This document shows positions 4,569 to 16,738 of a stretch of DNA of 20,188 bases, one piece after another; the stretch's first letter is position 1; each line of letters starts with the position of its first letter. The notes beneath the pieces are model-generated. The model searched no databases. It was not told the DNA's origin and worked only from the letters and a program-made list of their open reading frames with translations. Location: positions 1 through 20,188 of the IMG/VR virus record IMGVR_UViG_3300009470_000013, one strand, 5' to 3'. The position numbers and the translations under genes were made by a program. Source of the DNA: a virus.

Positions 4569-4592
4569 TTGCGCAAACCATTTACCCTACCC

Positions 4593-4916
4593 ATGCTCAC
4601 GGGTGTTGAACTACTCGCCAAGGTCAAAGAACTTGGTGATTGCAGTAAGTCTGAACTGGTCCGCGCTTGCGGTTATGTGGTCAAGGAACGCCTTGCCTTC
4701 ACGCAGTTCTACGAAGCATTGCTTGAAGCAAAAGGCATTGAACTTGGCGGCAAGCCTGCCAATAAAGGTCGTAAATTGACCTACAAGACCAAGGTGCAAT
4801 TCAACGGCAAGCTATCCGTTGGCGATGGTTACGTCCGTGAGATGGGTTTTGAACCTGGCACTGAGTTTGAAATCAAGCTTGGTCGTAATAGCATCACGCT
4901 GACCGCGGCTGCGTAA
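4593..4916 (+). CDS. cyAbrB-like transcriptional regulator
   Basis: This encodes a 107-residue protein with the layout of cyanobacterial AbrB-like regulators. Its N-terminal half has LLAKVKELGDCSKSELVRA, CGYV and the signature FTQFYEALLEAKGIELG. Its C-terminal swapped-hairpin DNA-binding domain runs from RKLTYKTKVQ through EPGTEFEIKLGRNSITL. In cyanobacteria cyAbrB proteins act on nitrogen, carbon and stress genes, partly like nucleoid proteins. I chose ATG 4593, which begins as family members do (LTGVELLAKVKEL). A TTG at 4569, abutting the terminase stop, would add 8 residues. No clear Shine-Dalgarno sequence is present. It interrupts the usual terminase-portal pair, so it is probably an acquired cargo gene that modulates host or phage transcription (inference). 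Confidence 0.88.
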   Translation: MLTGVELLAKVKELGDCSKSELVRACGYVVKERLAFTQFYEALLEAKGIELGGKPANKGRKLTYKTKVQFNGKLSVGDGYVREMGFEPGTEFEIKLGRNSITLTAAA

Positions 4917-13136: not shown

Positions 13137-13895
13137 ATGGCTGTTACTGTTTTGTCCGGTACGTCCGGCGCCCTCTACTACAAACCCGCTGGCACCACCG
13201 GAACATTCGGTACTGCTGGCGTTGACATCGCTGATGATGAAATCACCGTTGAGCCTTACCTGAACCTACGGGTAGGCGATCCGGTTGTGTTCAGCGTCGT
13301 CAACAGCCAAACCGGAGGTACTGGTACTGGTACGTTGCCTGCCCCACTTAGTGGTGCCACAACCTACTACGTGATTGCCTACACCGCCGCAACCGGCGTC
13401 CTGAAGGTATCGGCAAGCGTTGGTGGCACTGCTGTCAACATCGCAGATGTCGGCGTTGCCGCTGCTCCCAACGAGTTTCAGGTTGCTTACGCCGATTACG
13501 CAGCCGTCGGTCAAGTGCAATCTTGGTCCTTTGAGATCAGCCGCGCTGAAATCGACGTGACCACTATCGGTCAAACCGCTGGGCAGTATGCACCATTCCG
13601 TGCCTACATCCCTGGTTTTGCTGATGGCACCGGCAGCGCTACTGTTTACGTCACCAACGAAGACAGCGCACTGTCCAACCGGATGGTAGAAGATGTTCTG
13701 CAACGTCAGCAGGTTGGTTGCGGTTTCAAGCTGTACACCGACAAGCAAAGCACTGAGGCACTAAGCCGTTCCATCGCAATGGATGCTGTGCTGCTGACCG
13801 CTAGCCTCAACATCAACCCTGATGATGCGCAGCAAGTGGAAATCACCTTCCGCCCCGCTGGTGCCCCTACTTTCGACTTCAGCACGTCTGCTTGA
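13137..13895 (+). CDS. Major tail (tube) protein with inserted Ig-like module
   Basis: This is a 252-residue protein. The C-terminal half (about 125-252) has tube features: QSWSFEISRAEIDVTTIGQT, RAYIPGFADGTGSATVYVTN and a final QQVEITFRPAG strand. Residues about 40-105 contain RVGDPVVFSVV, GTLPAPLSGATTYYVIAY and GVLKVSASVGGTAV, a beta module widespread in phage structural proteins, probably exposed on the tube surface. Hexamers stack to make the tail. Start ATG 13137 lacks a clear Shine-Dalgarno sequence; tandem stops TGA-TAG close the gene. Codon use is that of an abundant protein. Confidence 0.85.
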   Translation: MAVTVLSGTSGALYYKPAGTTGTFGTAGVDIADDEITVEPYLNLRVGDPVVFSVVNSQTGGTGTGTLPAPLSGATTYYVIAYTAATGVLKVSASVGGTAVNIADVGVAAAPNEFQVAYADYAAVGQVQSWSFEISRAEIDVTTIGQTAGQYAPFRAYIPGFADGTGSATVYVTNEDSALSNRMVEDVLQRQQVGCGFKLYTDKQSTEALSRSIAMDAVLLTASLNINPDDAQQVEITFRPAGAPTFDFSTSA

Positions 13896-13941: not shown

Positions 13942-14289
13942 ATGGCATCATCTGCACTGGCACGGCTGAAGAAAGCAGCTAATCTTCAGCCGATCAAGCG
14001 TGTTGTTACCTTAACTGATGGCAGCACATTTGAGTTTTACGCCACTGCGCTGACAATGGCAGAACGCGAACGCGCGCAAAAGATGCCAGGCGGTGATGAT
14101 GCCAATGGCTTTGCACTGAACCTGCTGGTAACAAAGGCTGTTGACGAAGCCGGTCAGCGCTTGTTTCAAGCTGGTGAAATCGCCGAACTTAAAAACGAAG
14201 TGCTTGATGCTGATCTGCAAGGCATGATGCTGGCAATCATCACCAACCCCGAGGAAGCTGAAACCGACATGAAAAGCGCTAAAGGTTGA
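13942..14289 (+). CDS. Tail assembly chaperone, short form (gpG-like)
   Basis: This is a 115-residue protein with RVVTLTDGSTFEFYATALTM, AERERAQKM, LNLLVTKAVDEAGQRLF and ELKNEVLDADLQGMMLAII. That fits tail chaperones encoded between tube and tape-measure genes, which coat the tape measure during tail assembly and are absent from the virion. It terminates at TGA 14287-14289. The reading frame directly after carries a chaperone extension (14273-14461), reached by frameshifting, so two products in a fixed ratio are expected. No Shine-Dalgarno sequence is apparent before ATG 13942; the hairpin upstream may also lower its expression. Confidence 0.8.
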   Translation: MASSALARLKKAANLQPIKRVVTLTDGSTFEFYATALTMAERERAQKMPGGDDANGFALNLLVTKAVDEAGQRLFQAGEIAELKNEVLDADLQGMMLAIITNPEEAETDMKSAKG

Positions 14290-14461
14290 GCTTAAAAAAG
14301 ACAACCTATTACTGCTGCAACTTGGTGTAGCGAAAGAGCTGGGCTACACGCTAGCCCGGCTTAATCGTGAGGTAACACTGGAAGAGTTACTGATCTGGTC
14401 AAGTTACTTTGATCTACAAAACGAAGAGCAGGATCGTAGACTGAAGCAACGCCGTAGGTAA
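14273..14461 (+). CDS. Frameshifted C-terminal extension of tail chaperone (gpT-like)
   Basis: This open stretch (63 codons with stop) has no good start codon. It encodes KALKVELKKDNLLLLQLG, then AKELGYTLARLNREVT, LEELLIWSSYFDLQNEEQ and a basic end, typical of the T part of lambda-like gpGT. Relative to the 13942 gene it is in the +1 (equivalently -2) frame and is bounded by a TGA at 14270-14272. The shift must therefore occur at 14272-14289. A +1 slip of tRNA-Lys on AAAA (14272-14275) or AAAG (14281-14284), or a -2 slip at GCGCT (14276-14280), would do it. A -1 shift instead reaches a TAG after about 13 codons. Confidence 0.8.
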   Translation, partial: KALKVELKKDNLLLLQLGVAKELGYTLARLNREVTLEELLIWSSYFDLQNEEQDRRLKQRRR

Positions 14462-14464
14462 ATC

Positions 14465-16738
14465 GTGTCGGTTGTCGCCAACGTTGCTATTAACGTCGAC
14501 AGCCGGCAGGCAGTTACCAAGCTGCGGCAGGTTCAATCACAGTCGCAAGCAACAGAGCGTGCTGTAGGTAATCTTGGCGCTGCTGTTGGCAAACTTGCTG
14601 CTGCTCTTGGTGTTATTCAAGCAGCGCGTTTTGTCTTTGTCAAAACAGCTGAGCTTGAAAGTCAAACGCGCAGCCTTCAAGTATTAACGGGCAGCGCAGA
14701 AAAGGCTGGCCAGATCATTAAAGATCTGCAACGCCTTGGCGCTGTCACGCCATTCACAAGCTCCGAGCTGATTGATTCAGCAAAGCGCCTGCAGGCATTT
14801 GGCGTTGAAACCAACAAAGTTGTAGAAACAACGCGCAGGTTGGCAGATGTCAGCGGCGCAACAGGCGCTGAGCTGCAAGGCTTGGTGACTGCTTACGGGC
14901 AAGTACAAGCTAAAGGCAGGCTGCAAGGTGAAGAGCTACTGCAGTTCCAAGAGCGTGGTGTTGCGCTACAGCAAGAGCTGCGCAAGCAATACAACCTAAG
15001 CGGTGAAGAGTTTCAAGATGCACTGCAAAAAGGCAAGATCAGTGCCGAAGCTGTTGAGTTTGCAATTCAAAGCCTTACCAATGCAGGCGGCAAATACGCC
15101 AATGGTGCAATTGCCCAAAGCGACACATTAAATGGTCGATTTAGCACGTTGCAAGATGGCATTGAAGGGCTTGCCAGGACAATTGGCACGGCATTGACGC
15201 CAGCAATCAAAGCGGTGCTTAATGAAGCGATATTTGCGATCAATACAATCAACCAACTGCTGAATACTGGCGCTAGGGCAAAATCGTTTGGGCTGGATCA
15301 ACGCGCCCGAAAACAAATATTGGATCAAGCATTAAATGAAGCAGTAGATATTGTTGGTAAAAACGCGCAAACCGGAAGGCGTATTGCTGATCCTTTTGAG
15401 CGCGGGCGTCAAATTCAAGAAATTGCCGCGCAACGCGAACGCGATCTGATCGAAGCGTTTGGCATCCGCACCGGACAGGTCAAGCCGCAAGTCACTGCAC
15501 CGCAAGGCCAACGTGCGCTACCTGCTCTTGGCGCCGGTACAACTGGCGGAAGAAAGGGCAAATCCGATGCTGAAAAAGCTGCAGAAAAAGCAGCTCGTGA
15601 AGCTGAACGCCTTGCCAAAGAGCTAGAAAGATCGCTTGAGCTTGGCGATCAACTTGGTACTCAATTGGCGCGTGAAGCTGCATTGCTGTTTGAAGCTTCT
15701 GAGATTGAGCAGAAGCGTCTGCAAATTCAGTTTGATTTTGAAGATCGCGCAAAGCAGATTGCAGAGCTTAAAAACACAGAGCAGCAAGCCAACCTAAACC
15801 AACTCAACGCAGAAACCCAAAGGCTTAAGTTAATTGATCTGCAAACTGAAGCGCTTAAAAAGCAGGCCGAGGAAGCAGACAGGCTTTTTAAGAAGGCAAT
15901 GGATGACGCCGAGTTTGGTGTTGCGGGGCAAGGCACAGTAGCTTCTGGATTGAGCGATGCTATTAGCCAACTCAAGCAAGATCTAAATCCCATCAAGCTT
16001 GCAACTGATTCAATTGTTGGCGGCGCAAATGCAATCGGCGATGCTTTTGGTACTGCATTCCAGGATATTGCAAGTGGCGCTAAATCAACGCAAGAAGCAT
16101 TAGCAGATGCGTTTGAAAGCATTGGCAAGGCATTTATCAGCATGGCAGCTGAGATCATCGCTAAGCAGATGACGCTGATTATTCTGCAAACAATCTTTAA
16201 CGCATTAAGTGGCGGCGGAACCTTTGGCACGGCAAATAAAAACTTGTCAGGCGCTGGCGCCCTCAAGACTCCAATCCCAGGTTTAAAGATTGGAGGATAT
16301 GCAGAAGGCGGATTGGTAACAAGCCCCACGTTGGCCATGATCGGCGAAGGCGGTGAATCGGAATACGTCATTCCGTTTAGCAAAATGGACGATGCCATGG
16401 CGAACTACGCCAATGGCGCTCGCGGTGAAAGCGTCCTAAATCAAAGCAGCTCCAATGTCTCCAATTCCTTCTCAACGCTCAACACAGCAAACATTCCGTT
16501 CACTAAATCCACAGATCGCATGATGCAAGAACGCAGCGAACGCGAAACTGTCGCCGCTATCAACAACCCCAAACCGCTAGATGTGCGCTTTGAATCTCAG
16601 GTGATCAATGGCGTCGAATACGTCACCGCCGAGCAACACCAGCGCGGCATGGCACAAGCTGCAGAACGCGGACGTGCGCTAACGCTCTCCGCATTGCAGA
16701 ATTCCGTTAAGACACGCAAAAAGGTTGGTATGACATGA
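14465..16738 (+). CDS. Tape measure protein
   Basis: This 757-residue protein sets tail length; at about 1.5 angstroms per residue it suggests a tail near 110 nm. Residues about 60-240 match the tape-measure N-terminal domain (LQVLTGSAEKAGQIIKDLQR, TPFTSSELIDSAKRLQAFGV, KGRLQGEELLQFQERGVAL). From about 363 there is a charged coiled coil (DAEKAAEKAAREAERLAKEL), and near 562-582 a hydrophobic helix (EIIAKQMTLIILQTIFNAL) that could insert in the host membrane. The C-terminal region has YAEGGLVTSPTLAMIGEGG and EYVIPFSK, typical of the family. GTG starts three bases after the chaperone extension. No lytic enzyme domain is seen. Confidence 0.93.
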   Translation: MSVVANVAINVDSRQAVTKLRQVQSQSQATERAVGNLGAAVGKLAAALGVIQAARFVFVKTAELESQTRSLQVLTGSAEKAGQIIKDLQRLGAVTPFTSSELIDSAKRLQAFGVETNKVVETTRRLADVSGATGAELQGLVTAYGQVQAKGRLQGEELLQFQERGVALQQELRKQYNLSGEEFQDALQKGKISAEAVEFAIQSLTNAGGKYANGAIAQSDTLNGRFSTLQDGIEGLARTIGTALTPAIKAVLNEAIFAINTINQLLNTGARAKSFGLDQRARKQILDQALNEAVDIVGKNAQTGRRIADPFERGRQIQEIAAQRERDLIEAFGIRTGQVKPQVTAPQGQRALPALGAGTTGGRKGKSDAEKAAEKAAREAERLAKELERSLELGDQLGTQLAREAALLFEASEIEQKRLQIQFDFEDRAKQIAELKNTEQQANLNQLNAETQRLKLIDLQTEALKKQAEEADRLFKKAMDDAEFGVAGQGTVASGLSDAISQLKQDLNPIKLATDSIVGGANAIGDAFGTAFQDIASGAKSTQEALADAFESIGKAFISMAAEIIAKQMTLIILQTIFNALSGGGTFGTANKNLSGAGALKTPIPGLKIGGYAEGGLVTSPTLAMIGEGGESEYVIPFSKMDDAMANYANGARGESVLNQSSSNVSNSFSTLNTANIPFTKSTDRMMQERSERETVAAINNPKPLDVRFESQVINGVEYVTAEQHQRGMAQAAERGRALTLSALQNSVKTRKKVGMT

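Follow-up and report, generated by a model that had tools for sequence, protein, structure and literature searches.

The tail gene locus of virus record IMGVR_UViG_3300009470_000013 (20,188 nucleotides; the whole of this stretch is called the window) raises the question how an open frame that lacks a start of its own, and overlaps the end of a tail assembly chaperone-like gene in another reading frame, comes to be translated. The upstream gene resembles gpG of long-tailed phages, begins with ATG and ends with GGT TGA; the gpT-like frame is offset relative to it by +1 (equal to -2). The features of the locus are the following.

13137..13895, + strand: major tail protein gene (context; phrog_158, E 6.6e-7)
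13942..14289, + strand: gpG-like tail assembly chaperone, the normal termination product (open reading frame, 115 aa)
14270..14272, + strand: TGA closing the +1 frame just 5' of the shift site (from the sequence)
14272..14277, + strand: proposed shift site AAA_AGC (site conservation; constraint switches frame at the next codon)
14273..14461, + strand: gpT-like extension in the +1 frame, 62 codons and TAA (open frame under selection, without its own start)
14287..14289, + strand: gpG stop TGA, the 3' limit of the shift window (from the sequence)
14465..16738, + strand: tape measure protein gene (context; PF20155 TMP_3, E 2.7e-23; phrog_9959, E 7.1e-39)

The coding part of T spans 14273-14458 and is closed by TAA at 14459-14461; its translation is KALKVELKKDNLLLLQLGVAKELGYTLARLNREVTLEELLIWSSYFDLQNEEQDRRLKQRRR. 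At the junction the gpG frame reads GAC ATG AAA AGC GCT AAA GGT TGA and the T frame AAA GCG CTA AAG GTT GAG CTT. The original prediction, made from the window alone, had placed T in the +1/-2 rather than the -1 frame and had confined the shift to the interval between the TGA at 14270-14272 and the gpG stop at 14287-14289. Both limits are present in the sequence as described, and the frame was borne out by the homologues (see below). It had also been argued that no X_XXY_YYZ heptamer could serve because a -1 shift would soon run into a TAG. There is indeed no in-frame heptamer of this type in gpG, but the stop had been misidentified: the first one in the -1 frame past the site is TAA at 14280-14282, and the TAG follows at 14328-14330. 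With T in the +1 frame and no in-frame heptamer in gpG, a canonical -1 heptamer shift was rejected for the window.

The pair sits between the genes for the major tail protein and the tape measure protein. The profile phrog_344 (tail assembly chaperone) was matched by 30 of 46 gpG homologues with a best E of 5e-6, the window's own gpG scoring E 0.026. An AlphaFold2 model of gpG (pLDDT 87.7) had the HK97 tail assembly chaperone 2OB9 as its top PDB match (E 1.8e-3, probability 1.00, TM about 0.5), the fold of the two being similar. These scores are modest yet concordant, and they point to gpG as a relative of the known tail assembly chaperones. Homologues of T match the tail-protein families phrog_337 and phrog_14766; when the fusion was translated with AGCG read as Ala, phrog_14766 aligned, weakly, across the junction (E 0.0017, residues 61-160). 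A chaperone role of the pair is backed by gene position and fold and is otherwise inferred.

Homologous junctions were collected from IMG/VR by searching with gpG, with T, with alignments of both and with two annotated homologues. The best 80 matches per search, a part of the whole family, were examined in every forward frame for the two halves, with no shift direction presupposed. Among the matches listed, gpG and T were both present in 429 of 439 loci, T being offset by +1 in 388 and by -1 in 41. Many of these loci are closely related, and the same contig sometimes occurs among them more than once; counted as distinct T regions, which are distinct sequences and not independent events, the offset was +1 in 171 of 204 and -1 in 33 (among the matches listed). 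An offset common to so many distinct junctions excludes a sequencing indel, which had been named as a way in which the prediction could fail. No relatives were found in the bacterial genome contigs searched for prophages.

In all 171 distinct +1 junctions among the matches listed, AAAAG directly follows the stop (TGA or TAA) of the +1 frame. That a stop bounds each T frame upstream is true by definition; that AAAAG comes after every such stop is not. The variants of the site were ATGAAAAGC (109), TTGAAAAGC (28) and TTAAAAAGC (27), with TTAAAAAGT (3), TTGAAAAGG (2) and ATGAAAAGT (2) as rarer forms among the matches listed. In the same set the run consists of four A in 141 homologues and of five in the 30 that carry TTA, and the A-site codon is AGC in 164, AGT in 5 and AGG in 2. 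The end of gpG varies, lying 1 to 8 codons past the AAA, while the T segment aligns without gaps. In a marine clade, gpG ends AAA AGC stop in 46 of 60 junctions (among the matches listed). With the stop directly after AGC just two codons are left to shift in, with either AAA or AGC in the P site, and since of the two only AAA can re-pair (AAA to AAA), AAA_AGC is the sole credible site. AAAAG is thus a conserved site at which the P-site tRNA could re-pair one base forward, as a +1 shift calls for. Of the three candidates put forward originally, the AAAA at 14272-14275, with the junction MKALKVEL for a +1 shift, is the one that the comparative data back. The other two vary or are missing in relatives: AAAG (14281-14284) is absent in most of the marine clade, and GCGCT (14276-14280) has no place in most marine gpG genes, which stop right after AGC.

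Selection on the two frames was followed by reconstructing substitutions by parsimony for the window's clade (105 distinct sequences), with P values that treat the changes as independent. These sequences were picked by ATGAAAAG, so the zero change inside those eight bases is built in, and the evidence for site conservation is the unfiltered count of 171 of 171 and not the parsimony set. In the 57 bases upstream of the ATG that precedes the site, 45% of the changes were synonymous in the gpG frame (25% expected). Between +7 and +18 after the first A of AAA the T frame had 58% synonymous changes against 28% expected (p 1e-10), whereas the gpG frame had 9% against 24% expected, that is, no constraint. 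Past all gpG stops, 826 of 1167 changes were synonymous in the T frame (71% against 30% expected). Constraint passes from the gpG to the T frame at the codon after AAA, and the first base to change freely, with 28 changes, is in the wobble position of the GCN that forms the first T codon after AAA. Judged by these substitutions, T is no chance open frame and is under strong purifying selection.

Frame offset, site position, site conservation and the coding selection in each frame are all read directly from the sequence. The reading that we consider very probable is a programmed +1 ribosomal frameshift at AAA_AGC (14272-14277) yielding a gpG-T fusion. tRNA-Lys would occupy the P site on AAA 14272-14274 with AGC waiting in the A site, and would then slide forward by a single base to re-pair fully with AAA 14273-14275, which overlaps the first AAA. 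The A site would thereby change from AGC to GCG (GCN, Ala), and translation would go on in the T frame to give a fusion of 172 residues with the junction ...ETDMK-ALKVELKKDN.... As in other long-tailed phages, the fusion is expected to be a minority product beside a majority of gpG; this efficiency, like slippage in the P site itself and the chaperone function of the fusion, is inferred. The window's clade invariably has ATG as the codon before AAA (14269-14271 in the window), and the marine clade has TTG or TTA. No reason was found for this invariance, which counts against the explanation.

The rival that survives best, although we regard it as unlikely, is a -2 shift at the same site. AAA 14272-14274 would be decoded, the ribosome would move two bases back and AAA 14273-14275 would be read, giving ...DMKKALKVEL with an extra Lys. 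The net frame is the same and phage Mu uses -2 (PMC5009743); where homologues have TTA AAA, the tRNA would re-pair with UAA, on which two positions still pair. In the window, however, tRNA-Lys (UUU) would have to sit on UGA, at the cost of a U-U mismatch and one G-U pair, while the +1 slide offers three standard pairs, and the alternative -2 site, GCT to GCG, requires GCGCT, which is found in few homologues. A +1 shift is therefore favoured by pairing logic, and the two readings predict different Asp-N junction peptides, DMKALKVELKK for +1 and DMKKALKVELKK for -2.

Less probable again is that T is translated independently, either because ribosomes re-initiate once they have passed the gpG stop or because a weak start, CTG for instance, is used. 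The gpG stop overlaps T, a layout common among coupled genes. Yet a conserved ATG, GTG or TTG is absent from the first 15 T codons, with none whatever in 99 of 171 junctions among the matches listed, and T-frame constraint sets in with the codon that follows AAA, 5' of any plausible start. Moreover, a homologous -1 group reaches the same T through a shift site of its own, a classic heptamer followed by a hairpin, so that shifting into T is the rule for the gene family. RNA polymerase slippage, which would alter the frame in place of the ribosome, is very improbable: the site is an A run, but its 4-5 A make it shorter than the runs, of about 8 or more, for which transcriptional slippage is reported (PMC3711429). 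That T is a non-functional remnant and the fusion not made can be dismissed almost entirely in view of the purifying selection on its frame and its presence together with gpG in nearly all loci (see above).

The preferred +1 shift was also examined for stimulatory elements. A prfB-like upstream Shine-Dalgarno element is absent: 9-mers starting at -12 to -4 gave mean anti-SD pairing of -2.0 to +0.4 kcal/mol, which is weak. At -18 to -13 the window's clade pairs more weakly than synonymous shuffles do; the marine clade, whose rows are closely related, pairs more strongly around -30 and -20, a spacing unlike that of prfB. No conserved structure was found near the site in the window's clade, either upstream (z about 0) or downstream; for +6 to +51 the mean z was -0.74 and -0.15 in the +1 clades against -2.78 in the -1 group. 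A hairpin at about 14336-14362 inside T was rejected as a stimulator: it is strong (z -4.5 for a stretch of 92 nt containing it) but lies far downstream and is unconserved in relatives. AGC makes up 46% of the Ser codons in the window's clade and 6% in the marine clade. Because AGC is not rare in the former, a slow A-site codon is no obvious cause there; the marine site keeps AGC in 55 of 60 junctions (among the matches listed) despite its rarity; a slow codon may be the reason, or no more than the Ala (GCN) that the T product carries. AAA-AGC pairs are avoided elsewhere in the window's clade (5 against 15.5 expected), yet AAG-AGC is avoided more, and this avoidance was discarded as evidence. 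The window contains no tRNA genes.

The 33 junctions with T in the -1 frame use A_AAA_AAC (23) or A_AAA_TAA (6) among the matches listed, and have strong structure close downstream (the mean z given above is from 29 sequences). One of them belongs to cyanophage KBS-S-2A (NC_020854), whose gpG and T are 68% and 72% identical to those of the window; there, T lies in the -1 frame after A_AAA_AAC, and a hairpin of -18.6 kcal/mol (z -3.6) begins a few bases past the site. On average, the +1 clades have no hairpin of this kind. The T extension of this phage (4288-4473 of locus L158) is unannotated in NC_020854. Since homologues including KBS-S-2A use -1, shift direction appears to have changed within one gene family. 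On a gpG tree (58 rows, 103-column alignment) the direction label requires four changes, and the starred branches force four. Two of these are single rows, L308 and L355, the latter on a very long branch; with both set aside by eye, two changes remain. In L308 (983-1493) gpG is nearest a -1 row and T is nearest +1 rows, which suggests recombination between its two halves. The window's clade (25 rows, 99/94) is nested in a set (98/91) that also has -1 members; beyond the -1 rows, on their other side, comes the marine +1 clade. The tree is unrooted, and gain and loss of +1 look alike on it. From these comparisons, the direction of the shift seems to have been reversed within a single gene family, in a group of cyanobacterial viruses that is very common.

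In its position, its chaperone-related G and its startless T in another frame under selection, the pair fits the lambda-type G/GT layout. Lambda gpG/gpGT shares the order tail tube, G, T, tape measure and an expected minority fusion, but lambda shifts -1 on a slippery heptamer, whereas T of the window is in the +1 frame and its site is AAA_AGC. That shifts other than -1 occur in this gene pair, as the original prediction had said, is established: tailed phages use -1, -2 or +1 for this pair of products, Mu using -2 and haloarchaeal HSTV-2 very likely +1 (PMC5009743, a review of 2016), and the chaperone of the mycobacteriophage cluster F1 (Karhdo) is annotated with a +1 shift (PMC10793310). HSTV-2 and cluster F1, known as predicted and annotated, respectively, are likened to the window by the direction of entry into T alone. 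The Mu shift gives the same net frame, but by inspection AAA_AGC offers poor -2 re-pairing (AAA to UGA or UAA). Bacterial prfB (RF2; PMC3711429, PMC10885494) likewise shifts +1 by P-site slippage, but on CUU_UGA, where the A-site codon is a stop and a Shine-Dalgarno element lies upstream, whereas the window has the sense codon AGC and no such element. The SPP1 tail tube protein gp17.1* is made by a +1 shift at CCCUAA (PMC6316719), in a phage tail gene and on a homopolymeric P-site codon as here, but the gene encodes a tube protein and the A-site codon is a stop; the shift of SPP1's own chaperone is putatively -1. The forward-shift motifs of PRFect are three or four identical bases (PMC10885494), which would include AAAA. 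In the mostly open-access literature neither AAA_AGC in this role nor this gene family was found described, nor was any frameshifting in KBS-S-2A, which is weak evidence of absence. Frameshifts other than -1 are thus a class already known for this gene; what is new is the site with its conservation, and the switch of direction.

The window also encodes a DNA polymerase III beta sliding clamp (663-1706; PF02768, E 2.3e-18), a DNA methylase (1703-2899; PF01555, E 1.4e-25) whose N-terminal about 180 residues have no Pfam match, and, between the terminase and a DUF4055 gene, an AbrB-like regulator (4569-4916; PF14250, E 2.9e-22), which we take to be of a kind familiar from cyanobacteria. This gene and the kinship to Synechococcus phage KBS-S-2A suggest that the host is probably a picocyanobacterium. 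Tentatively, and with slightly less than even confidence in the two parts jointly, AAA_AGC may be a compact sense-codon +1 site of picocyanobacterial phages that needs neither an RF2-type Shine-Dalgarno element nor RNA structure, with at least two evolutionary moves between it and a -1 site with hairpin through small changes at the junction. The annotation of KBS-S-2A lacks the C-terminal part of the chaperone, and those of related uncultured phages probably lack it too. The locus provides a precise +1 site for which homologous genes, including one of a cultured cyanophage, are a natural -1 control. With the two together it can be studied how a +1 site functions in the absence of the usual helpers, and by what means the chaperone ratio of a phage is maintained when the direction of the shift reverses.
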